This document shows, piece by piece, positions 10,228 through 36,111 of a DNA stretch of 64,000 bases. The notes below the pieces were generated by a model. The model saw only the letters and a list, made by a program, of their open reading frames with translations, was not told the origin of the DNA and did not search any database. Source of the DNA: Fructilactobacillus hinvesii. GTDB lineage: Bacteria; Bacillota; Bacilli; Lactobacillales; Lactobacillaceae. The DNA lies in the NCBI RefSeq assembly GCF_024029435.1, contig NZ_CP097118.1:682001-746000 (forward strand), in the 5' to 3' direction. Position 1 is the stretch's first letter; each line of letters begins with the position of its first letter. The translations under genes and the position numbers were made by a program.

Positions 10228-10539
10228 ATGGAACAACCAACCCAACTGCAGCAGCAAATGTTGGAATGCCTTTCTTCCGTAGTTGATCCGGAACTGGGCG
10301 TAGACATTGTGAATCTTGGCCTCATTTACAAATTAGCGTTTGTGTCCGGAACGGTAACCGTCCAACTGACATTGACTACGATGGGATGCCCTTTAATAGA
10401 GGAATTAGAGCAAATGATTCGGCAGGCATTGTTACATCTGAAGTCGGTCAAAACGGTTCAGATTGAATTAGTTTGGGAACCAGCCTGGACACCGCAACGG
10501 ATGAGTCGAGCGGCTCGTTTAGCACTTGGAATTCATTAA
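10228..10539 (+). CDS. SufT/MIP18-type Fe-S assembly factor (DUF59)
   Basis: A 103 aa protein with the MIP18 family pattern [15 protein letters not shown] (about residues 20-34) and TTMGCPL (conserved Cys). Relatives (SufT, PaaD, CIA2) help deliver Fe-S clusters to target proteins. The ATG at 10228 follows the leuC stop by one base, with GAGGAA inside the leuC end. Its place between leuC and leuD, and upstream of sufCDB, suggests it matures LeuCD (inference). The family is clear; the exact role is not. Confidence 0.85.
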
Positions 10540-10565
10540 TTGAAAGCATAGCAAAGGAGCAAACA

Positions 10566-11150
10566 GTGGAAGCATTTGTTACAGAAACAGGAAAAGCAGT
10601 GGTATTACCACGTGATGACATTGATACTGATTTGATCTTACCGAAACAATTTTTAAAGAACATTCTCAAAACGGGATTTGGAGTGGATTTGTTTTATGAC
10701 TGGCGTTACTTGGATGATGGTAGTCCAAATCCAGACTTTGCGCTAAATCGACCAGAGAATCAGGGAGCAACGATTTTAATTACTGGCTCGAACTTTGGAG
10801 CCGGTTCTTCGCGAGAACATGCTGTTTGGGCTTTAACGGGTTACGGATTTAGGGCAGTCATTGCTGGCAGTTTTTCAGATATTTTTTACATGAATGCCAC
10901 TAAGAATGGATTACTACCAATTCAATTACCTAAGGAACAACGGGAATTCTTAGAAACGGTGCGTCCAGAGGAACGAATTTACATTGACTTACCCCATCAA
11001 ACGGTGACACTACGAGAGCATAGTTTTTCGTTTGAAATTAATCCCCAATGGAAAAATAAATTTATCAATGGAGAAGACGACATTGATATTACGATGAAAT
11101 ATGAACAACAAATCACAGAATTTGAACAACAGCGACCAAATTACGATTAA
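10566..11150 (+). CDS. leuD: 3-isopropylmalate dehydratase small subunit
   Basis: This is the swivel-domain partner of Leu[18 protein letters not shown] near the N-terminus and [17 protein letters not shown] are the family signatures. The chosen start is GTG 10566, which has AAGGAG at 10554-10559 with 6 bp spacing and gives 194 aa, the usual length. Longer in-frame readings would overlap the sufT-like gene and add unrelated residues. It is followed after 18 bp by a YrdC-like gene. Confidence 0.95.
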
Positions 11151-11168
11151 AGATTATAGGAGAAGAAC

Positions 11169-11945
11169 ATGAATAAACACATTAATTGGAATGGTAATGT
11201 CCAACCTGAAGCAGTAGAAATTTTAACTGGTGCAGGAGGAATGATTGTGAGTCCAACAAAAGTCGGATACATTATCATGACTTCTGATAAAGCAGGCTTG
11301 GAACGTAAATTCACAGCAAAACAACGGAAGAGAAACAAACCAGGAGTCGTTTTGTGTGGCTCGTTGGAAGAACTGGATGAATTAGCTGAAATGACACCCA
11401 CCATCCGAAAAATGTATCAAGAACATTGGGACCAAGATATTTTGTTAGGTTGTATTTTGCCATGGAAGGCTAGTGGTAAGGAAAAATTACCAGCGGATGG
11501 TAGTCAAGAATTGATGATGGACCGACGTGAAACTAGCTGTTTTGTGATTAAATTTGGGAAACCAAGTGAAATGATTGCCAAAGAATTGTGGGAAAAGGAA
11601 GGTCAGTTTGCCTTTGCTAGTTCTGCTAATCCATCTGGTAGGGGAAATAAAGGTAAAGTGAAAAACATTGGGGATCGAATTGAATCTCAAGCCGATTTGA
11701 TCATTGAAGCTGATGATTATGTGGCTTCCATTCAACCAAACGAAACTGAGCAAACGCGGTATGAGCAAGGAGTGATGGTTTCGATGGTGGATGAACAGGG
11801 CAAGTTGATCTCAGAACAAGTTCAAGCCATGGAAAAACAACCAGTTCCAGTTGTGATTCGCAAGGGATTGGATGTGGATAAGATTATGAAAATCATGAGT
11901 GATCTGTTTTGGAGTTGGGATTATCGCCAGGGAGCATATTACTAG
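11169..11945 (+). CDS. Sua5/YciO/YrdC family protein
   Basis: A 258 aa protein of the YrdC fold. GAGGMIVSPTKVGYIIMTSD (about 21-40) replaces the usual PTDT-YG nucleotide-binding start, KRNKPGVVLCGSLEEL matches the KxRxxxKP region, and FASSANPSGRGNKG is the conserved Ser-Ala-Asn-Pro motif. TsaC/Sua5 members make threonylcarbamoyl-AMP for tRNA t6A. This one is divergent (PTK instead of PTDT), so it may be a paralogue with another substrate. Its position between leuD and sufC in a tight operon is unusual and its role there is unknown. Confidence 0.75.
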   Translation: MNKHINWNGNVQPEAVEILTGAGGMIVSPTKVGYIIMTSDKAGLERKFTAKQRKRNKPGVVLCGSLEELDELAEMTPTIRKMYQEHWDQDILLGCILPWKASGKEKLPADGSQELMMDRRETSCFVIKFGKPSEMIAKELWEKEGQFAFASSANPSGRGNKGKVKNIGDRIESQADLIIEADDYVASIQPNETEQTRYEQGVMVSMVDEQGKLISEQVQAMEKQPVPVVIRKGLDVDKIMKIMSDLFWSWDYRQGAYY

Positions 11946-11955
11946 GAGGGTTTTA

Positions 11956-12732
11956 ATGACGACATTAACGATTAAAGATTTGCACGTAGAAGTAGAAGGT
12001 AAAGAAATTTTAAAGGGTGTGAATCTAACCGTAAAGACGGGAGAAGTTCATGCCATCATGGGACCAAATGGAACCGGGAAATCAACTCTTTCTCAAACCA
12101 TTATGGGTCATCCTGCCTATAAACGTACTCAAGGCCAGATTTTACTAGACGAACAAGATATAGACGAATGGACCGTTGATGAACGAGCTCGGGCTGGCTT
12201 ATTCTTAGCAATGCAATATCCAGCAGAGATCCAAGGGGTTACGAACGTAGAATTTATGCGTGCGGCGATGAATGCACGCCGCAGTGATGATGATCAAATT
12301 GGAATTACCGAATTTTTACGTCAATTGGATCAGAATCGCGAAATTTTATCGATGCCAGAAGAAATGACGGAACGTTATTTAAATGAAGGTTTTTCTGGTG
12401 GAGAAAAGAAGCGAAATGAAATTTTACAGATGATGATGATTAAACCAAACATTGCTATTTTGGATGAAATTGATTCAGGGTTAGATATTGATGCCTTAAA
12501 GGTAGTTGCTCGAGGAGTTAATTCAATGCGCTCACCTGAGTTTGGGGTATTGATGATTACTCATTATCAACGCCTGCTTGATTACATCGAACCGGATTTT
12601 GTGCACGTTATGATGGGGGGCCGAGTGGTTAAAACCGGGGGATCAGAATTAGCTAAACGACTAGAAGAGAATGGTTATGCACAATTACGTGATGATTTAG
12701 GCCTCAACATTAAACTGACAGATGAAAATTAA
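11956..12732 (+). CDS. sufC: Fe-S assembly ATPase SufC
   Basis: ABC-type ATPase of the SufBCD scaffold, 258 aa. It has Walker A GPNGTGKST, the SufC-specific signature FSGGEKKRNEILQM, Walker B IAILDEIDSGLDIDAL and the His loop ITHYQRLL. The ATG at 11956 follows AGGAGGG; a longer in-frame reading has no such support. It starts 10 bp after the YrdC-like gene and 11 bp before sufD. Confidence 0.97.
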   Translation: MTTLTIKDLHVEVEGKEILKGVNLTVKTGEVHAIMGPNGTGKSTLSQTIMGHPAYKRTQGQILLDEQDIDEWTVDERARAGLFLAMQYPAEIQGVTNVEFMRAAMNARRSDDDQIGITEFLRQLDQNREILSMPEEMTERYLNEGFSGGEKKRNEILQMMMIKPNIAILDEIDSGLDIDALKVVARGVNSMRSPEFGVLMITHYQRLLDYIEPDFVHVMMGGRVVKTGGSELAKRLEENGYAQLRDDLGLNIKLTDEN

Positions 12733-12743
12733 GGAGGGTCAGG

Positions 12744-13952
12744 ATGACAGATTTGCAAACGTTCAAACGAAAACTGGCTAGCGGTGAACCGCAGTCAGAA
12801 GCTGATCCGACTTTTGCTAAAGTACGATACCATAGCTGGCATTTAGAGCAACTTCATTCGGTTGCAACCGGAAATACTGAATTGCCTAGTCGTCCGCTCC
12901 CCAATGGAATCGAGTTAGTCCAAGCCCAAGTACGTTGGAGTCATTTGACGGAAAAGCTAACTAAGCAGGGTATAGTTGTTTGTGATTTTCAAACCGCGCT
13001 TAGTCATTTTCCTAACGTATTGCAGCGGAGCTTGGGCCAAGTAATTGGGCCTCATGCTAACACATTAGCCGCCATTAATTGGAAGGAATTTACGAATGGA
13101 ATTCTGGTTTGGGTTCCTGCAGAAACTCATGTCACGGAGTTAATTAATGTTATTCAAACAATAACTGCTGATTTAGCTAGTCGATTGATTGTTTACGTGG
13201 AAAATCAGGCTCAGGTTACCATTTTAAGTCAGTTACGATCCACAGAAATTGCTCAAGGAAAGAGTTCATTAGTGATGGAAGTAGTTGCAGAACCTGGCGC
13301 CGAAGTTAATTTGATTACGGTTGATGAAATTGGACCCCAGCTTCAGGGAAGTATTTTTCGTAAAGCAACCGTGAGGCAGGGAGCTCAGGTAAATTGGTAC
13401 AATGCCGAGTTGAATCAAGGCAATCAACTGATTGATTTACAAAGCCAATTGGTGGGAACTGGCGCTCAATCTTTAACGAACGTGATTGCCTTAACTAGTG
13501 ATAAACAGATTCAGGGACTCAATACTAAAATTCTGAACCAAGCCCCGCATACCGTTGGGAATATCCTACAACGAGGAGTTATATTGGATCGTTCCCGGTT
13601 AGTTTTTAATGGAATTGGAGAAATAAAACAAGGGGCTGTGGGTTCTGATGCGCAACAAGAATCTCGGGTTTTGATGCTTAGTAAGTATGCCCGTGGAGAT
13701 GCTAATCCGTTGTTACTAATTGATGAAAGTGACGTTACCGCGGGACATGCTGCTTCAGTGGGACGTGTGGATGCTGACCAACTTTATTACCTCATGAGTC
13801 GTGGTATTGATAAAAAAACAGCGCAACGATTAGTGATTAGAGGATTTTTAGGACCAGTGGTGGTTAAGATTCCGACTAAAGAAGTTCAGCAAGAAGTGAT
13901 TAATTTAATTGAAAAGAAGTTAGTGGCTGCCGAGTTACAGGGGGAGGATTAA
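12744..13952 (+). CDS. sufD: Fe-S assembly protein SufD
   Basis: SufB/SufD beta-helix family, 402 aa, partner of SufB and SufC in the scaffold complex. The C-terminal [28 protein letters not shown] block is diagnostic. The ribosome-binding site is AAGGAGG. In most Firmicutes sufS (desulfurase) and sufU follow here, but the next gene, 4 bp on, is sufB. Sulfur must therefore come from a desulfurase encoded elsewhere. Confidence 0.94.
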
Positions 13953-13956
13953 GGAG

Positions 13957-15387
13957 ATGGAAATAGAACGCGAGGATGCACTGCGTAAGACGAAAGAAGC
14001 CATTGGTGCCGATCAAGAATATCAGTTTGCATTTCAAGATGATTTTACCCCAGAATTTTCGACTGGAAAGGGAATTTCCGAAGAGATTATTCGTAAAATT
14101 TCTGCCCATAAAAATGAACCTGAGTGGATGCTTGAATATCGATTAGAAGCTTATCGAGCTTATCAAAAAATGCCGATGCAAACATGGGGTCCAGATTTAA
14201 GTGCGATTGATTTTGACGACATTTATTACTACAACAAACCGACGGCTGAAAAGTATCGTGATTGGGAAGACGTTCCCGAACAACTTAAGGAAACATTTGA
14301 AAAACTTGGAGTTCCAGAGGCAGAACGACGCTGGTTGGCTGGATCATCTGCTCAGTATGAGTCAGAAGTAATTTACCACCGTATGAAAGAAGAGTTTGAT
14401 AAAACAGGAATTGTTTTTACAGACACAGATACAGCGTTACAACAGTATCCAGAGCTCATGAAAGAATACTTTGGAAGTCTGGTAAAACCCACTAATAACA
14501 AATTAGCAGCCTTAAATGCAGCCGTGTGGTCGGGAGGAACCTTTATCTATGTTCCTAAAGGAGTTCACGTTACCACCCCAATCCAATCTTACTTTCGTAT
14601 TAATCAAGAAAATGAAGGTCAATTTGAACGAACGCTAATTATTGTGGATGAGGGGGCTCACGTTGATTATGTAGAAGGATGTTCTGCCCCAATGTATTCT
14701 GGGGATGCACTGCACGCGGCCGTCGTTGAAGTAATTGTAAAGAAAGATGCTTATTGTCGTTATACAACCATTCAAAATTGGTCAAATAATGTTTATTCTC
14801 TAGAAACCAAGCGTGCGGCTGCTGCTGAAAATGCCACCATGGAGTGGGTGGATGGTAACTTTGGTTCAAAAACAACTATGAAGTACCCATCTGTTTACTT
14901 AAATGGAGAAGGCGCCCGGGGAACGATGCTATCGATTGCAGTAGCAGGGAATGGAGTTAATTTGGACTCGGGGGCGCAAATGATTCACAATGCTCCTAAA
15001 ACATCTTCTTCGATTATTTCTAAATCAATTGCTCACGATGGGGGAGCAACCGATTACAGAGGAACAGTGAAATTTGGTCGGGCTGCTGACGGGTCCTTTG
15101 CGCACGTGGAATGCGATACGATTTTGGTTGATGATGAATCATCAGCAGATACGATCCCTTATAACACCATTTTGAATGGGAATGTAACAATGGAGCACGA
15201 AGCTAAAGTTTCTAAGGTATCAGAAACGCAGCTTTATTACCTGATGTCGCGGGGAATTTCAGCTGCCAAAGCAACAGAAATGATTATTATGGGATTCGTG
15301 GAACCGTTCACTAAGGAATTGCCGATGGAATATGCGGTTGAACTGAATCGGTTAATGAAATTTGAAATGATTGGTTCCGTTGGATAA
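13957..15387 (+). CDS. sufB: Fe-S assembly scaffold protein SufB
   Basis: Scaffold subunit on which clusters are assembled, 476 aa. [20 protein letters not shown] and the [19 protein letters not shown] region carry the Cys residues corresponding to those implicated in sulfur transfer and cluster building in E. coli SufB. The C-terminus repeats [15 protein letters not shown]. It is the last gene of the leu-suf operon. The next frame downstream is a broken oxidoreductase. Confidence 0.97.
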
Positions 15388-31452: not shown

Positions 31453-31494
31453 AAAATGGCTAGGATTTGATTTTTCAAATCCTAGCCATTTTTA
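31452..31494. terminator. Bidirectional terminator
   Basis: AAAAATGGCTAGGATTTGA (31452-31470) and TCAAATCCTAGCCATTTTT (31475-31493) form a perfect 19 bp stem with A/T flanks. It ends both the padR unit (plus) and the aminotransferase operon (minus), overlapping the aminotransferase stop. Confidence 0.9.
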
Positions 31495-32664
31495 TTTAGA
31501 AATTATTTTTGCATGTATTGCTGAATTCTTGGCTTCCTTGAGATTATCCATCGAAGTGGCGTAACTGATCCGCACGTAACCTTCTCCACCCGGTCCAAAG
31601 GCCTTACCAGGAACAACGGCAACTTTGGCTTGGTTTGCTAAGTCATAGCTAAAAGCAAAACTATCCTGATTATAGCCAGCCGGAATCTTGGCGAAGATGT
31701 AGAATGCTACATCAGGATTGGCTAATTCAAAGCCCGCTTTTTGTAGTTCCTTGACCATAAAATCTCGGCGTTTTTCGTATTCGGATTTCATCTGAGCCGT
31801 GTCAGTACTCCCATTTTGTAATGCTTCTGCGGCGGCTGCTTGGGCATTGGTGGTCGTCGATGTAATCGTAAACTGATCGATTTTTTCCAGTTGATCAGTA
31901 ATCTCTTGGGGCGCCGCCATGATTCCGATTCTCCAGCCGGTCATCGCATGTGACTTGGAAACCCCATTGAGTAAAATGGTTTGGTCGGGCAAGAGACTCG
32001 CAATTGAAACGTGAGCACCAGTGTAAGTTAGTTCACTGTAAATTTCATCGGAAATAACAAAAATTTCATGTTGTTTGAGAATGTCTGCCAGCTTTTGGAG
32101 GGCTTTTTGGTCATACGTTTTTCCAGTTGGATTCGAAGGGAAGTTTAAAACGATGGCTTTGGTGTGAGGATGTGCTGCTAACGTTTCCTTCAGTTGTTCG
32201 GGAGTCAAGACAAAGTCCGTCTTTGAAGTATCCATAAAAACTGGATGAGCGCCCCGTAACTGGGTGACTGGAATGTAGAGAGGAAAGATGGGCGTTGGAA
32301 TCAAGACGTCATCGCCGGGATTGAGGATGGAGGTGAGGGCGGTGTAAATGCCACCGGTGGCTCCCGCCGTCATAATGATTTCCGTTTCAGGATTGTAGTT
32401 TAGTCCGTAGCGGTCGTTTAAGAAATTAGCGGCCGCTTGGCGTAATTGTAAGGTTCCACGGGTCGGAGCGTAGTGGCTTTCATCGTGATTGATGCTGGCA
32501 ATGGCGGCCTGTTTAACGTTTTCCGGAGTCGGGAAATCTGGTTCTCCTAGGGTTAGTGGGATTAGGTCCGGAATCTGACTGACATCGTCGTTGAATTTTA
32601 AAATGGCGGATGGAGATAATTCAAGCATTTCGTGATTCATTTTGGTAACTAATGGATTAGTCAT
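31492..32664 (-). CDS. Class I/II aminotransferase, probably aromatic
   Basis: PLP-dependent aminotransferase of 390 aa. PLP lysine in NGVSKSHAMTGWRIG, NFPSNPTGKTYD (Asn), ISDEIYSEL (Asp, Tyr), and the C-terminal Arg in YVRISYATS. The family covers aspartate and aromatic transaminases (AraT/PatA). The leader peptide at 33945-33874 is rich in Phe, Tyr and Trp and its attenuator controls this operon, which favours an aromatic substrate. It lies 17 bp after the EIIC_2-type gene. Confidence 0.85.
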   Translation of the reverse strand: MTNPLVTKMNHEMLELSPSAILKFNDDVSQIPDLIPLTLGEPDFPTPENVKQAAIASINHDESHYAPTRGTLQLRQAAANFLNDRYGLNYNPETEIIMTAGATGGIYTALTSILNPGDDVLIPTPIFPLYIPVTQLRGAHPVFMDTSKTDFVLTPEQLKETLAAHPHTKAIVLNFPSNPTGKTYDQKALQKLADILKQHEIFVISDEIYSELTYTGAHVSIASLLPDQTILLNGVSKSHAMTGWRIGIMAAPQEITDQLEKIDQFTITSTTTNAQAAAAEALQNGSTDTAQMKSEYEKRRDFMVKELQKAGFELANPDVAFYIFAKIPAGYNQDSFAFSYDLANQAKVAVVPGKAFGPGGEGYVRISYATSMDNLKEAKNSAIHAKIISK

Positions 32665-32681: not shown

Positions 32682-33725
32682 TTATTGGTAATTAATTTGA
32701 AAATCTTTAGCGGTTTGCAAATGCAACTTATTGGTAAAGAGGTAACGACTGAGAAAGGCCAAAGCAACTGGTAACACGATAAAGAGCAGCAAGCTAATGA
32801 TGATGGTACTACTAGTGTGATGCGGATGGGCTGACAGGTTAGCAAGTGGTCCCACTAACCCGGAAAGACCAAAACCGGCACTTACCGGGGTTCCCTTGAC
32901 GTTGAAAAGGGCGCCCAGGCTACCAACAATCGCAGCGTTAATGATGGAAGGAATAAATAATTTTGGTTTCTTTAAAACGTTAGCCATTTGAATTTTGGGC
33001 GTCCCGACGAAGTGTGAGATGGTGGTTCCGAGCGAATTAACCGAAGCGCCTGCAATGGCCACTGTAAATGCCGCTGCAGTAATTCCCAAGTTTGCTGATC
33101 CAGCTGCAATGCCGGAAATTCCGATGGCAGTTGCAATTCCGACCGAACTAATTGGAGAAAGCACCAGAATCGCAAAGCAAATTCCTATTACCGCTCCCAT
33201 TAGTAACGGTTGTAAGCCCGTGAACTGCATGATCAGTTTGCCAATTGCCTTGGTAAAGGCGGTGACAGGTCCTAGCGTGAGCAAACCAATCCCCCCACCA
33301 ATTAGCAGGGTTAAAGTCGGTAAAAGTAAAATCGTGTAACCGTGCAGGTGTTTGCCCACCAAGATAATCAAAGCGTAGGCCACCGCAATGGTAATCCCAA
33401 TGTTGAGCACGTTGCCGCTTCCGGTTACTGCAATTTGTCCTTGATTAAAATGGGCGTTTCCAGCACCGACCGCTGCGGCCAGGGCGAGACAAGTGGTCTG
33501 AATCGGGGTGAACTTGGCCAGCATCCCTACACAAACGGCACTGGTGGCTGGAAGCAACATCGCAGCGATACTGGTCATGGCGAGAATGATACCTAGTAAC
33601 GGGAACTGAGTTACAAACGGTTTGATGATGGCGTTCAGAATGGCTCCTGGAACGAGCGCTACGATTAAGCCAATCGAGATCCCGTTTAAAATATTGTTAG
33701 TAGCAGTTTTGATGGAATTAGGCAT
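32682..33725 (-). CDS. EIIC_2-type (PF13303-like) integral membrane protein
   Basis: A 347 aa polytopic protein with about 8-10 helices, Gly-rich. It resembles the PTS_EIIC_2 family (ILNGISIGLIVALVPGAILN, AAAVGAGNAHFNQGQIAVTGSGNV, GTTISHFVGTPKIQMANV). No EIIA, EIIB or ptsI is nearby, so phosphotransferase function is unproven. Sharing an aromatic-residue leader and a transcript with an aminotransferase suggests it moves an aromatic amino acid or its oxo/hydroxy acid (inference). The start ATG 33725 has AAAGGA upstream. Confidence 0.75.
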   Translation of the reverse strand: MPNSIKTATNNILNGISIGLIVALVPGAILNAIIKPFVTQFPLLGIILAMTSIAAMLLPATSAVCVGMLAKFTPIQTTCLALAAAVGAGNAHFNQGQIAVTGSGNVLNIGITIAVAYALIILVGKHLHGYTILLLPTLTLLIGGGIGLLTLGPVTAFTKAIGKLIMQFTGLQPLLMGAVIGICFAILVLSPISSVGIATAIGISGIAAGSANLGITAAAFTVAIAGASVNSLGTTISHFVGTPKIQMANVLKKPKLFIPSIINAAIVGSLGALFNVKGTPVSAGFGLSGLVGPLANLSAHPHHTSSTIIISLLLFIVLPVALAFLSRYLFTNKLHLQTAKDFQINYQ

Positions 33726-33758: not shown

Positions 33759-33860
33759 AAAAAGCCTAGTTAGAACCGTGATTCTAACTAGGCTAGTTGT
33801 ACAGAAAATTCAAATTCAATCGAACTGCCTAGTTAAAATCATTTCAGATCTAACTAGGCA
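33759..33860 (-). promoter_or_regulatory. Aromatic attenuator: competing hairpins and terminator
   Basis: Read on the minus strand. Segment 1, AGATCTAA (complement of 33878-33885, inside the leader ORF end), pairs with segment 2 (33846-33859). The 2:3 hairpin is a perfect 10 bp stem (33851-33860 with 33826-33835). Segment 3 (33827-33835) can pair 9 bp with segment 4 (33785-33793). The terminator 4:5 is a perfect 13 bp stem (33782-33794 with 33763-33775) followed by T5. The repeated CCTAGTTAG words make the alternatives nearly isoenergetic, as expected of an attenuator. Confidence 0.85.
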
Positions 33861-33873
33861 ACCAAAAATTACC

Positions 33874-33945
33874 TTACTTAGATCTGCGCGGATTCCAAGT
33901 AAAGTAAAAATAGAAACTAGGTTGGTGCGTCAACTGACTGGTCAT
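33874..33945 (-). CDS. Aromatic leader peptide (23 aa)
   Basis: ATG at 33945 follows AGAAAGGAAAG. The peptide contains PSFYFYFTWNP: three Phe, two Tyr and one Trp in seven residues, then RRSK and TAA (33874-33876). The aromatic run lies upstream of segment 1 of the attenuator, so a ribosome stalled there would leave segment 1 free. It is the sensor for the aminotransferase/EIIC_2 operon. Confidence 0.85.
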   Translation of the reverse strand: MTSQLTHQPSFYFYFTWNPRRSK

Positions 33946-33978
33946 TTGAACTTTCCTTTCTAAAATTAAATTGGTTTA

Positions 33979-34007
33979 ATTAAACAATGATTAAGAATGA
34001 TTGTCAA
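33979..34007 (-). promoter_or_regulatory. Promoter of the aromatic leader transcript
   Basis: On the minus strand TTGACA (complement of 34002-34007), 17 bp, and TTTAAT (complement of 33979-33984). It lies directly after the preceding dehydrogenase stop and about 30 bp before the leader ATG. Confidence 0.8.
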
Positions 34008-34015
34008 GGGAAATT

Positions 34016-35017
34016 TTAAATTACGGCGTTTGGACAAGTTCCGGTGGCAATTGTGGTCGCAAAATTTTGGTAACTAATCGTAATCATGTCGGTTAGTGCG
34101 GGCTCGGTGAACGAACCCACGTGTGGGGTAATAATGACGTTCGGGAATTGCTGCATTAGGGTTAGTAGTTCAGCATTCGGCAGTTGATCTAAACTAGCGA
34201 AATCTTTTCCGATGATTTGGGATTCAGCAACAATGACGTCAGCCCCATAGCCACCGATGGTTTGCGCTGCTAAAGCTTGATTAACTGCCGGTAAGTTGAC
34301 GACCTGCGAACGTGCCGTGTTAATTAAAATGGCATCAGACTTCATTTCCCGTAGTTCAGCTTGGTCAATTAAATGCTCCGTTTTCCCGGGAATAAACGGA
34401 ACGTGGAGCGAGACAATGTCAGCTTCATTCAGTAACTCAGGTAAGCTGACTAGGTCGATCCCATTTTTATGGTGGGGATCGGCAGAATTAGGATCGTACC
34501 CGATAACCGTGGCCCCGAGACCAGCATAAAGTTCTCCTTCTGCAGCTCCAATTCGGCCACAACCGATGATTCCCACTGTAGAACTATGAATTTCTTTACT
34601 AAAATATTGATCTAATACCCGAAAGTTGCCGGTGTGGGTGTTGGTAATTTCCGCAGCGACCTTTCGAAATAAGGACATGCCCAACGTTAAGGCTAGTTCA
34701 GCCACCGCATAGGGAGAGTAACTGGGAACCCGAGCAACCTTTAATCCTAGTTCTTTTGCCGCATCTAAATCGAGATGATCAACGCCGACAGTTCGGGTAA
34801 AGACGTATTCAATGCCCCATGCTTTAAATTTTTCCAGATTCGTTCGATCACCTAAACAATTTCCCCGCAGGAGTACGCCGGTTGAACCCTTGGCAACGTT
34901 AGCATTGTCGTGGTCTAAAAGTTCCGGCACCAAGTTTAATTCGTAATGTTCGGTATTTAATTTCTTAAAGTAAGGAACCTCAATGGGACGAACTCCGTAT
35001 GCAGTAATTTTAACCAT
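34016..35017 (-). CDS. D-2-hydroxyacid dehydrogenase (D-LDH family)
   Basis: A 333 aa NAD-dependent 2-oxoacid reductase. YVFTRTVGVDHLDLDAAKELGL, the Rossmann motif GIIGCGRIG, the catalytic Arg in NTARSQVVN, the Glu in ADVIVAESQ and the His in TPHVGSFTEPAL are all present. Members reduce pyruvate, branched or aromatic oxoacids. Its neighbour on the left is the aromatic aminotransferase operon and on the right, 14 bp upstream, an AEC carrier. Phenylpyruvate or a related oxoacid is a reasonable but unproven substrate. Confidence 0.9.
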   Translation of the reverse strand: MVKITAYGVRPIEVPYFKKLNTEHYELNLVPELLDHDNANVAKGSTGVLLRGNCLGDRTNLEKFKAWGIEYVFTRTVGVDHLDLDAAKELGLKVARVPSYSPYAVAELALTLGMSLFRKVAAEITNTHTGNFRVLDQYFSKEIHSSTVGIIGCGRIGAAEGELYAGLGATVIGYDPNSADPHHKNGIDLVSLPELLNEADIVSLHVPFIPGKTEHLIDQAELREMKSDAILINTARSQVVNLPAVNQALAAQTIGGYGADVIVAESQIIGKDFASLDQLPNAELLTLMQQFPNVIITPHVGSFTEPALTDMITISYQNFATTIATGTCPNAVI

Positions 35018-35031
35018 GGTAAATTTCCTTT

Positions 35032-36111
35032 CTATTTCAAGATCCCGGTACTATTAATAACCTGCAGGAGGGCAATCCAGATTGGCATCATGATAACGGC
35101 GAGAACCGTCGAAATCAGAGAAGCATTGGAAGCTAAGACCGCGTTCCGATTAAAACTAATTGCATAGGCGGAAGCAACCGTTGCCGTGGGCGTTGCCATC
35201 ATGATTACCATTGTTGCAATTGCAACAAAGCTCATTGGAAGCACTCCTAGTGCGGAAAGGCCACCGGCTAAAATTAAGGTAACCAAGGGTACCAAAATTA
35301 CCTTATTAAAACCGTAGTACCAAGAAATTTTACTTCCAGCTGCTTGCTTAAAGGAAAGCGATCCAAGGGTCACACCAATTGAGAGCCATGCTAGTGGTGA
35401 GGCAAGTTGAGCTAGATAATTAAGCGGAGTCCATAACCATAATGCCGTTTGATCAATTCGGAAAAAGGCCACTGAATGAGTTCCAGCACTTTGATCAATG
35501 ACCCCTTTCACAAAGGTCGGAACCGTCACGTGGGGAACGTAATCCTGGATTAGCCACAGGACTAAACCTAGAAAAGTGGCAATGACAACGGGATTTAATA
35601 ACATCTTTTTGACGTTTTTTAATTCCATTTTGAGCCCCGACATCTTGATGTATGCATACGAATACAGGAAAACGCGGTAACCGATGTTAAAGATGGAACT
35701 GTACATAATTCCCTTTGGTCCTAAGACGGCTCCGACAATTGGGATTCCAAAAAATGTGGTAGAACCAAACGTTGTTAAAATGCTCATTACGTCCCGTTCT
35801 GACTTAGGTAATTTAATGTATAAGAAGGGGGACACGATGAGAAAAATGATGATGATTAAGAATCCCCAGATTAGGACGCTCATACCCTCCGACAGTGTTT
35901 TTCCATCGATTGGAGCCATAAAAGAATTGAGTGCTAAGGCGGGAATCGCGACGGTCAAAGTTACCTTGGCAAGTGTTTTGCCAAATTGTTCGGAAAAAAT
36001 GTTGTGTTTTCGCAGGAAAAAACCGAGCAAAATAATAAAAATGGTTGATGTAATGGCACTAACGATGCTGGGATTAGTTAGTGTTTTCACGAATGCAGCA
36101 GTAATACTCAT
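35032..36111 (-). CDS. AEC-family (auxin efflux carrier type) transporter
   Basis: A 359 aa protein with about ten helices of the AEC/malate-permease type (FIILLGFFLRKHNIF, KVTLTVAIPALALNSFM, TTFGSTTFFGIPIVGAVLGPKG, ATPTATVASAYAISFNRNAVLAS). These carriers move organic anions such as malate, lactate or other hydroxyacids. It starts at ATG 36111 behind CGGAGG and sits 14 bp before the D-2-hydroxyacid dehydrogenase, so it may export the hydroxyacid made by that enzyme. Confidence 0.87.
   Translation of the reverse strand: MSITAAFVKTLTNPSIVSAITSTIFIILLGFFLRKHNIFSEQFGKTLAKVTLTVAIPALALNSFMAPIDGKTLSEGMSVLIWGFLIIIIFLIVSPFLYIKLPKSERDVMSILTTFGSTTFFGIPIVGAVLGPKGIMYSSIFNIGYRVFLYSYAYIKMSGLKMELKNVKKMLLNPVVIATFLGLVLWLIQDYVPHVTVPTFVKGVIDQSAGTHSVAFFRIDQTALWLWTPLNYLAQLASPLAWLSIGVTLGSLSFKQAAGSKISWYYGFNKVILVPLVTLILAGGLSALGVLPMSFVAIATMVIMMATPTATVASAYAISFNRNAVLASNASLISTVLAVIMMPIWIALLQVINSTGILK

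Follow-up and report, generated by a model that had tools for sequence, protein, structure and literature searches.

A probable aromatic leader-peptide attenuator before EIIC_2 and aminotransferase genes in Lactobacillaceae

In Fructilactobacillus hinvesii, an operon encoding a PTS_EIIC_2 membrane protein and an aminotransferase is very probably (about 0.88 by our estimate) controlled by a ribosome-mediated transcription attenuator that senses the supply of charged Phe, Tyr and Trp tRNA. The region in question occupies positions 34007-33759 on the minus strand of the window, i.e., the 64,000-nucleotide stretch analysed here, which belongs to a genome of 1.465 Mb assembled as one contig. It contains an ORF with clustered aromatic codons preceded by a Shine-Dalgarno (SD) sequence, an intrinsic terminator before the first gene and, in silico and on transcripts ending before the 3' arm of the terminator, an antiterminator whose strength depends on the position of the ribosome. 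Judging from the codons, the physiological trigger would be aromatic starvation, and the hairpins would form in order during transcription, not reaching equilibrium.

The first gene of the controlled operon (32682..33725, minus strand; 347 aa) matches the PTS_EIIC_2 profile PF13303 with an E value of 1.3e-88 and is followed by a gene for a class I/II aminotransferase (31492..32664, minus strand; 390 aa), in agreement with the operon proposed in an earlier, sequence-only reading of this DNA. The nearest named relatives of the EIIC_2 protein, from Lactobacillus sp. S2-2 and three Fructilactobacillus species, share 63-71 % identity with it, and identity reaches 91 % in further genomes of this genus. 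Among NCBIfam models the aminotransferase fits NF005588 (PRK07309) best, with a score under the model cut-off; its closest solved structure is 4my5, a putative amino acid aminotransferase, and more distant solved relatives are 1gd9, labelled aspartate aminotransferase, and 1dju, labelled aromatic aminotransferase. Upstream of the leader lie genes for a D-2-hydroxyacid dehydrogenase family protein (34016..35017, minus strand), with (R)-2-hydroxyglutarate dehydrogenase 1xdw as nearest PDB entry, and for an AEC-type transporter. Since a terminator scan found no terminator-like site between the dehydrogenase gene and the leader promoter, read-through from the transporter and dehydrogenase genes (34016-36111, minus strand) would meet the attenuator too.

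The promoter named in the sequence-only reading is indeed present on the minus strand (33979..34007): TTGACA (34007-34002) is separated by 17 nt from TTTAAT (33984-33979). The pattern TTGAC(A/G)-17 nt-TTTAAT is kept in six of seven Fructilactobacillus leaders, the seventh (L032) being a weaker match. A stock promoter scan missed it because that scan requires an A at position 2 of the -10 hexamer. An SD-like sequence, GAAAGGAAAG (33951..33960, minus strand), precedes the leader peptide ORF MTSQLTHQPSFYFYFTWNPRRSK (33874..33945, minus strand), whose 23 codons run from an ATG at 33945 to a stop at 33876-33874, with the aromatic cluster at codons 11-17 (33915-33895). This ORF, too, had been predicted, and orthologous leaders keep it. 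Among SD-preceded ORFs of 8-40 codons on both strands of the 64-kb window, just the leader and two others reach 5 aromatics in 8 residues, and the leader alone has 6 or more. The 13-mer TCATTGTTTAATT, which contains the -10 region of the leader, occurs at 33990-33978 and again at 33753-33741 (minus strand), the second copy immediately before the EIIC_2 ribosome site; a small duplication or a second promoter element are candidate readings of this repeat.

The 218-nt leader RNA is far more stable than expected by chance (folding z = -7.6; none of 200 shuffles was equally stable). Within it six arms, all on the minus strand, can be distinguished. Arm A, ACTTTACTTGG (33895..33905), lies within the aromatic codons (codons 14-17) and is complementary to CTAAGTAAGGT around the stop codon. 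Arm B, CAGATCTAAGTAAGGT (33871..33886), comprises the end of the ORF and its stop codon and can pair either with A (through 33881-33871) or with C (through 33886-33878). Arm C, GCCTAGTTAGATCTG (33845..33859), pairs with B for antitermination or with D for termination, and arm D, TTTTAACTAGGC (33827..33838), with C for termination or with E as antiterminator. Arm E, AGCCTAGTTAGAAT (33781..33794), is the 5' arm of the terminator and is shared between D and F. Arm F (33776-33763), located by the terminator scan together with the T-run that extends to 33759 (33759..33776), is the 3' arm. The terminator hairpin (33794-33763) has 14 pairs, namely the 13 Watson-Crick pairs noticed in the sequence-only reading plus one G-U. 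That reading had recognized five complementary segments; all of them exist and correspond to B-F, but its count was short by one, arm A within the aromatic codons having been missed.

The terminator set would thus consist of A:B, C:D and E:F, and the antiterminator set of B:C and D:E. When the leader is untranslated, A would hold B, C:D would form and E:F would then terminate transcription; it is the addition of arm A that makes termination the default state of an untranslated leader, an outcome that five arms alone would not give. A ribosome that has reached the stop codon would cover B, so that C:D forms as D emerges and E is left for F, again leading to termination. A ribosome stalled on the aromatic codons for want of charged tRNA would instead cover A and free B. 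Once B:C has formed, D would take E before F competes, and the polymerase would read into the EIIC_2 and aminotransferase genes. Between 33859 and 33763 (minus strand), GCCTAGTTAG is common to arms C and E, and AACTAGGC to D and F; C:F and D:E can consequently form together, exchanges being built into the sequence, and the two hairpins, CD and EF, give the impression of a unit that was duplicated.

An alignment of seven Fructilactobacillus leaders shows that all five pairings of arms A-F are possible in each of them. A:B is complete in six leaders, F. florum alone falling to 9 of 11 pairs; 9 or 10 of 10 pairs are retained in C:D, 9 to 12 of 12 in D:E and 11 to 14 of 14 in E:F. For B:C, 6 to 9 of 9 pairs were counted, the low value resulting from an aligner gap inside arm C. 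The sequence-only reading had staked its case on conservation of the alternative pairings, and in Fructilactobacillus these are kept with compensatory changes. In D:E, two pairs are changed on both sides in L032, L034 or L035. In B:C, where the double changes were read directly off the aligned sequences, two pairs are likewise changed on both sides in L032, L033 and L035, the window type AGATCTAA/TTAGATCT becoming GTATCTAA/TTAGATAC. Since the latter exchange turns a leader Arg codon into Val, it is the RNA, not the peptide, that seems to be constrained here.

Relatives of EIIC_2 were sought in 301 Lactobacillaceae genomes, of which 193 matched at E 1e-3. The better-scoring EIIC_2 places together with the window gave 91 places for examination, 19 named loci being included in the material; a few places of similar score (G016, G112, G118, G142) were left out. 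An aromatic leader was found at 73 of the 91, window included. It is present at 58 of the 64 places that have an aminotransferase in the fetched stretch and at 15 of the 27 that have none there. The leader precedes EIIC_2 where EIIC_2 is the first gene and the aminotransferase where the latter comes first; when 33 aminotransferase-first loci with a truncated or short upstream part were re-examined with longer sequence, 32 of them had a leader. A relaxed scan of 27 loci lacking a convincing match added L126 and the Oenococcus leaders, which the first filter had missed because they have no SD. The leaders of this group (L045, L046, L078, L084) carry an AT-rich stretch directly before the ATG, and they may be leaderless transcripts. 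Six places have an aminotransferase and no leader was found there (G040, G106, G161, G009, G048, G079); none was found either at 12 places without aminotransferase, among them the second EIIC_2 of the window genome (L111; strict scan).

In a separate search starting from the aminotransferase, 126 of 151 genomes matched at E 1e-100 and 20 new loci were picked from the better matches. Fifteen of them have a leader, L205 with only 4 aromatics in 8 residues and L211 with no SD within the searched stretch, and none was found at L200, L213, L215, L217 and L219. L200, from a genome of the same genus (G144), encodes an aminotransferase 81 % identical to that of the window; this genome has no leader at the locus and, at E 1e-3, no match to EIIC_2, which may reflect a joint loss of leader and transporter. 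In the window genome itself, the aminotransferase paralogue L196 has no leader by the relaxed scan. At another paralogue, L197, a 13-residue aromatic ORF starting with TTG was set aside: it has no visible ribosome site and sits at a hairpin with a T-run, probably the terminator of the preceding gene.

Outside Lactobacillaceae, 27 EIIC_2 loci of the order (L164-L191 minus L186) were taken from the best of 59 matching genomes among 148 searched. In the 550 nt upstream of these loci no SD-preceded ORF attains 5 aromatics in 8 residues, one with 4 of 8 being present at L165 and at L166, and no aminotransferase was found in the 1.5-kb flanks of any of the 27. The joint absence of leader and aminotransferase at these loci indicates that the leader goes with the aminotransferase operon and not with every EIIC_2 gene. 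One record, L044, is titled Faecalicatena absiana and has a Lactobacillus-like aminotransferase/EIIC_2 operon with the leader MKLTNAQQNSFFSFYYWA; its title may be wrong, or the genes may have been acquired.

The aromatic cluster is kept across the leaders, with Phe, Tyr and Trp interchanging, as illustrated by those of F. sanfranciscensis (MNSQMINQTSFYFYFAWYDNVSK), F. lindneri (MDNHMINQNSFYFYFAWYDSVSK), Ligilactobacillus agilis (MLKKTTLQLNNYYYFYFFRKGL), L. delbrueckii (MNALISKNAKFFSFYYWN) and Oenococcus kitaharae (MADQMSQMHSYYYWFTR). All 73 distinct peptides contain Phe, 71 contain Tyr, 53 Trp and 51 all three. The N-terminal half is, by eye, mostly variable between genera. A hairpin with a T-run, sought between the leader and the next gene, is present at any strength for 69 of the 73 leaders and at -12 kcal/mol or better for 65. 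Conservation of the aromatic run was the other point on which the sequence-only reading could have failed, and run and following terminator are kept together in these 65 leaders from 19 genus groups. In L125, L126, L134 and L156 the terminator and the ORF that follows are 142-288 nt apart, a gap that could accommodate an additional element.

The dependence on ribosome position was modelled on the 65 leaders with a terminator of -12 kcal/mol or better. Eight of the 73 were dropped beforehand, four having no terminator and four (L031, L053, L071, L139) only a weak one; the 19 genus groups were assigned by hand, L044 being placed with Lactobacillus. The folded RNA began 13 nt downstream of the first base of the A-site codon and ended in the terminator loop, i.e., before the 3' terminator arm exists, and the strength of the antiterminator was taken as the free energy needed to free the 5' terminator arm. 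Mean strength was 4.70 kcal/mol with no ribosome, 8.78 with the ribosome on the first aromatic codon, 10.46 in mid-run and 5.21 at the stop codon, compared to 4.96, 4.94 and 4.81 kcal/mol (none, first codon, stop) for shuffled controls, 12 per leader; 30 of the 65 leaders exceed all 12 of their shuffles. In 45 leaders the value at the first aromatic codon is more than 1 kcal/mol above that at the stop codon, and the reverse holds in 6. Along the ORF, the mean stays at about 5.5-5.9 until two codons before the run, reaches its maximum of 10.6 at the fourth codon of the run and is down to 5.2 by the ninth; it climbs again well beyond the stop codon, where no ribosome would go. In 55 of the 65 leaders (19.3 expected) the maximum falls inside the aromatic cluster. 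The idea that stalling favours the antiterminator is thereby borne out in the model. By a cruder measure, the mean pairing probability of the 5' arm, the values were 0.58 with no ribosome, 0.73 at the first codon and 0.63 at the stop.

With one value per genus group, the effect is positive in 15 of 19 groups at the first aromatic codon (p 0.001) and in 16 of 19 in mid-run, the leaders being related by descent and p values in this analysis therefore optimistic. The groups not positive at the first codon are Lactobacillus proper (4.4 vs 5.2), Ligilactobacillus (5.6 vs 6.1), g9 (5.7 vs 10.0) and g30 (4.3 vs 4.6); the first three are not positive in mid-run either, whereas g30 fails at the first codon only. 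The reversal in g9 may reflect a wrong choice of terminator, those of L115 and L116 being long and irregular. Fourteen further leaders behaved like the first set, more weakly (4.49, 6.35, 8.13 and 4.25 kcal/mol for none, first codon, mid-run and stop); 13 of the 14 peak inside the cluster (4.2 expected), and 7 gain and 2 lose more than 1 kcal/mol. The freedom of arm D before E emerges differs weakly between the stalled and the stop state (18 up and 9 down of 61 leaders, with a likewise optimistic p of 0.015).

For the window leader the corresponding strengths are 3.0, 13.8, 18.0 and 4.8 kcal/mol, and values of 8.4-11.2 kcal/mol are already attained with the ribosome on codons 1-10, before the aromatic run. 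In the growing RNA, when D has just emerged, the mean pairing of C:D is 0.83 both without a ribosome and with one at the stop codon, compared to 0.01 with a ribosome stalled on codon 13, in which case B:C stands at 0.98. With E half out, D:E reaches 0.5 if the ribosome is stalled and is 0 otherwise. In this model, the order of pairing in the growing window RNA is the order that the mechanism needs. The earlier proposal that a ribosome at the stop codon leads to the terminator is, however, not borne out at equilibrium for the finished RNA. Once E is out, the stop state at equilibrium prefers D:E (0.89), and the best fold of the finished RNA with the ribosome at the stop, D:E plus C:F (-46.7), lies 6 kcal/mol below C:D plus E:F (-40.7). 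Conversely, in the finished stalled RNA the probability of E:F at equilibrium is still 0.67. Since these equilibrium folds oppose the model, the mechanism needs early hairpins that persist as the polymerase passes.

Could the peptide, rather than the supply of its codons, be what matters? In a TnaC-type arrest, the aromatic C-terminus of the nascent peptide would stall the ribosome when a metabolite, either a free aromatic amino acid or a 2-oxo acid, is in excess, and the operon would be induced by that excess. The peptide end is in fact recurrent (YFW[FY]F in 32 of the 73 peptides, [FY]F.[FY][FW] in 51) and is preceded by a QLN triplet in 23, and the relative of the hydroxyacid dehydrogenase found in the fetched stretch at 41 of the 64 aminotransferase places would suit a catabolic use induced by excess. 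However, QLN excepted, the stretch expected to line the tunnel varies, by eye, from genus to genus, and the aromatics interchange (FYFYFTW, FFSFYYW, LYLAFIW, YYYWFTR), as the counting of codons predicts. RNA pairing can also yield a recurrent order, at least 5 nt of the run being paired with downstream RNA in 50 of the 65 leaders, a figure computed without shuffled control. Taken together, we regard nascent-peptide arrest as improbable. Less probable again, at a few chances in a hundred, is that the aromatic codons are a by-product of a U-rich pairing arm, the ORF having no role and the site being a plain terminator or the target of a protein antiterminator. Arm A is U-rich and does lie within the aromatic run. 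Nevertheless, dinucleotide-preserving shuffles, whose U content is unchanged, rarely produce such ORFs: of 3650, 11 gave an SD-preceded ORF with 5 aromatics in 8 residues and none gave one with 6 of 8. The corresponding counts among the 73 real regions are 68 and 51; these regions had been selected for having a leader, so that 73 of 91 is the fair prevalence. In addition, synonymous codons for Phe and Tyr vary (TTT 175, TTC 42, TAT 100, TAC 65).

T-boxes are the usual amino-acid sensors in Firmicutes, and a T-box or another riboswitch binding a tRNA or a metabolite would be the conventional expectation for this locus. Yet Rfam release 15, at gathering score, returned only rRNA and tRNA in the window and no T-box, riboswitch or leader family; outside L131-L163, the scan gave one rRNA only in 20 related loci and nothing in 20 further loci and three stretches of the window genome itself. 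We consider this explanation to have a next to negligible probability, and the attenuator reading charged Phe, Tyr and Trp tRNA as by far the best account.

The enteric pheA, pheST and trp attenuators combine a translated leader rich in regulatory codons, alternative hairpins and a terminator before the first gene. The lactobacillus attenuator shares with them the short translated leader, the alternative hairpins and the intrinsic terminator. However, the enteric leaders belong to different bacteria, read mainly one amino acid each where the lactobacillus leader mixes Phe, Tyr and Trp codons, and were not matched by Rfam in the scanned stretches. In topology the switch corresponds to the his attenuator of Salmonella and E. 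coli, with six arms in which A:B, C:D and E:F compete with B:C and D:E; amino acid and operon are different. Leader-peptide attenuation in Firmicutes is described for the ilv-leu leader of S. aureus (PMC5794164) and for Listeria Rli60, likewise an attenuator of ilv-leu (PMC5864092); both rely on branched-chain codons, whereas the lactobacillus leader is aromatic. As predicted branched-chain leaders of Lactococcus lactis and Streptococcus are cited in PMC5794164, the device is not foreign to Lactobacillales. In Bacillus, hisS/hisZ and his operons use His leader-peptide attenuation in place of a T-box, with histidine codons and other genes than here, and T-boxes are reported for his genes of Lactobacillales (PMC2965389, PMC9413887). 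Finally, the uORFC-13-1 motif before aroF in Acholeplasma is proposed (PMC8632094) to contain a uORF coding for at least one Phe before a terminator. It thus likewise places a Phe uORF and a terminator before an aromatic pathway gene, but in another lineage, before another gene and with no Phe/Tyr/Trp run in the described motif. The open-access literature searched, judged by titles and abstract openings, reports no aromatic leader in lactobacilli. Compared to these systems, the lactobacillus leader is very probably a new and widespread leader-peptide attenuator, unusual both for its lineage and for combining three amino acids. It would give food and gut lactobacilli, in which one would expect T-boxes, a family-wide sensor that reads three amino acids at once, and the 73 and 14 distinct leaders are enough for RNA family entries, genus by genus.

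The following proposal on what the operon does for the cell is, in our estimate, clearly less likely to be right than wrong. Lactobacillaceae may share one pan-aromatic attenuator that has stayed with the aminotransferase through operon reordering, and the aminotransferase, the D-2-hydroxyacid dehydrogenase and EIIC_2 might act together in salvage, taking up aromatic 2-oxo or 2-hydroxy acids (phenyllactate, for example) and converting them into Phe, Tyr and Trp. The direction of salvage is suggested by the opening of the attenuator on shortage. The aminotransferase/hydroxyacid dehydrogenase route is tied to phenyllactate and flavour compounds; salvage, if true, would turn around the usual picture, in which these enzymes produce phenyllactate. 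The attenuator offers a direct and cheap test of the direction of this route in the cell.

The biosynthetic genes of the window genome bear on this point. One stretch (L193; G000:C1:418000-437000) encodes, at 10455-15053, chorismate synthase, an ORF without Pfam match, EPSP synthase, prephenate dehydrogenase and shikimate kinase. Prephenate dehydratase (PF00800) was not found in the window genome by a search that was positive in 14 of 14 control genomes. Given the presence of the dehydrogenase and the lack of a PF00800 match, the genome probably allows Tyr synthesis by way of prephenate dehydrogenase and an aminotransferase, while Phe can probably not be formed from prephenate by the dehydratase route. 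An aminotransferase whose expression opens on shortage fits the last step to Tyr, as well as the formation of Phe from imported phenylpyruvate, if its substrates are aromatic. Neither an Rfam leader nor an aromatic leader was found before the shikimate cluster. Elsewhere in the same stretch there is one 10-residue ORF starting with GTG.
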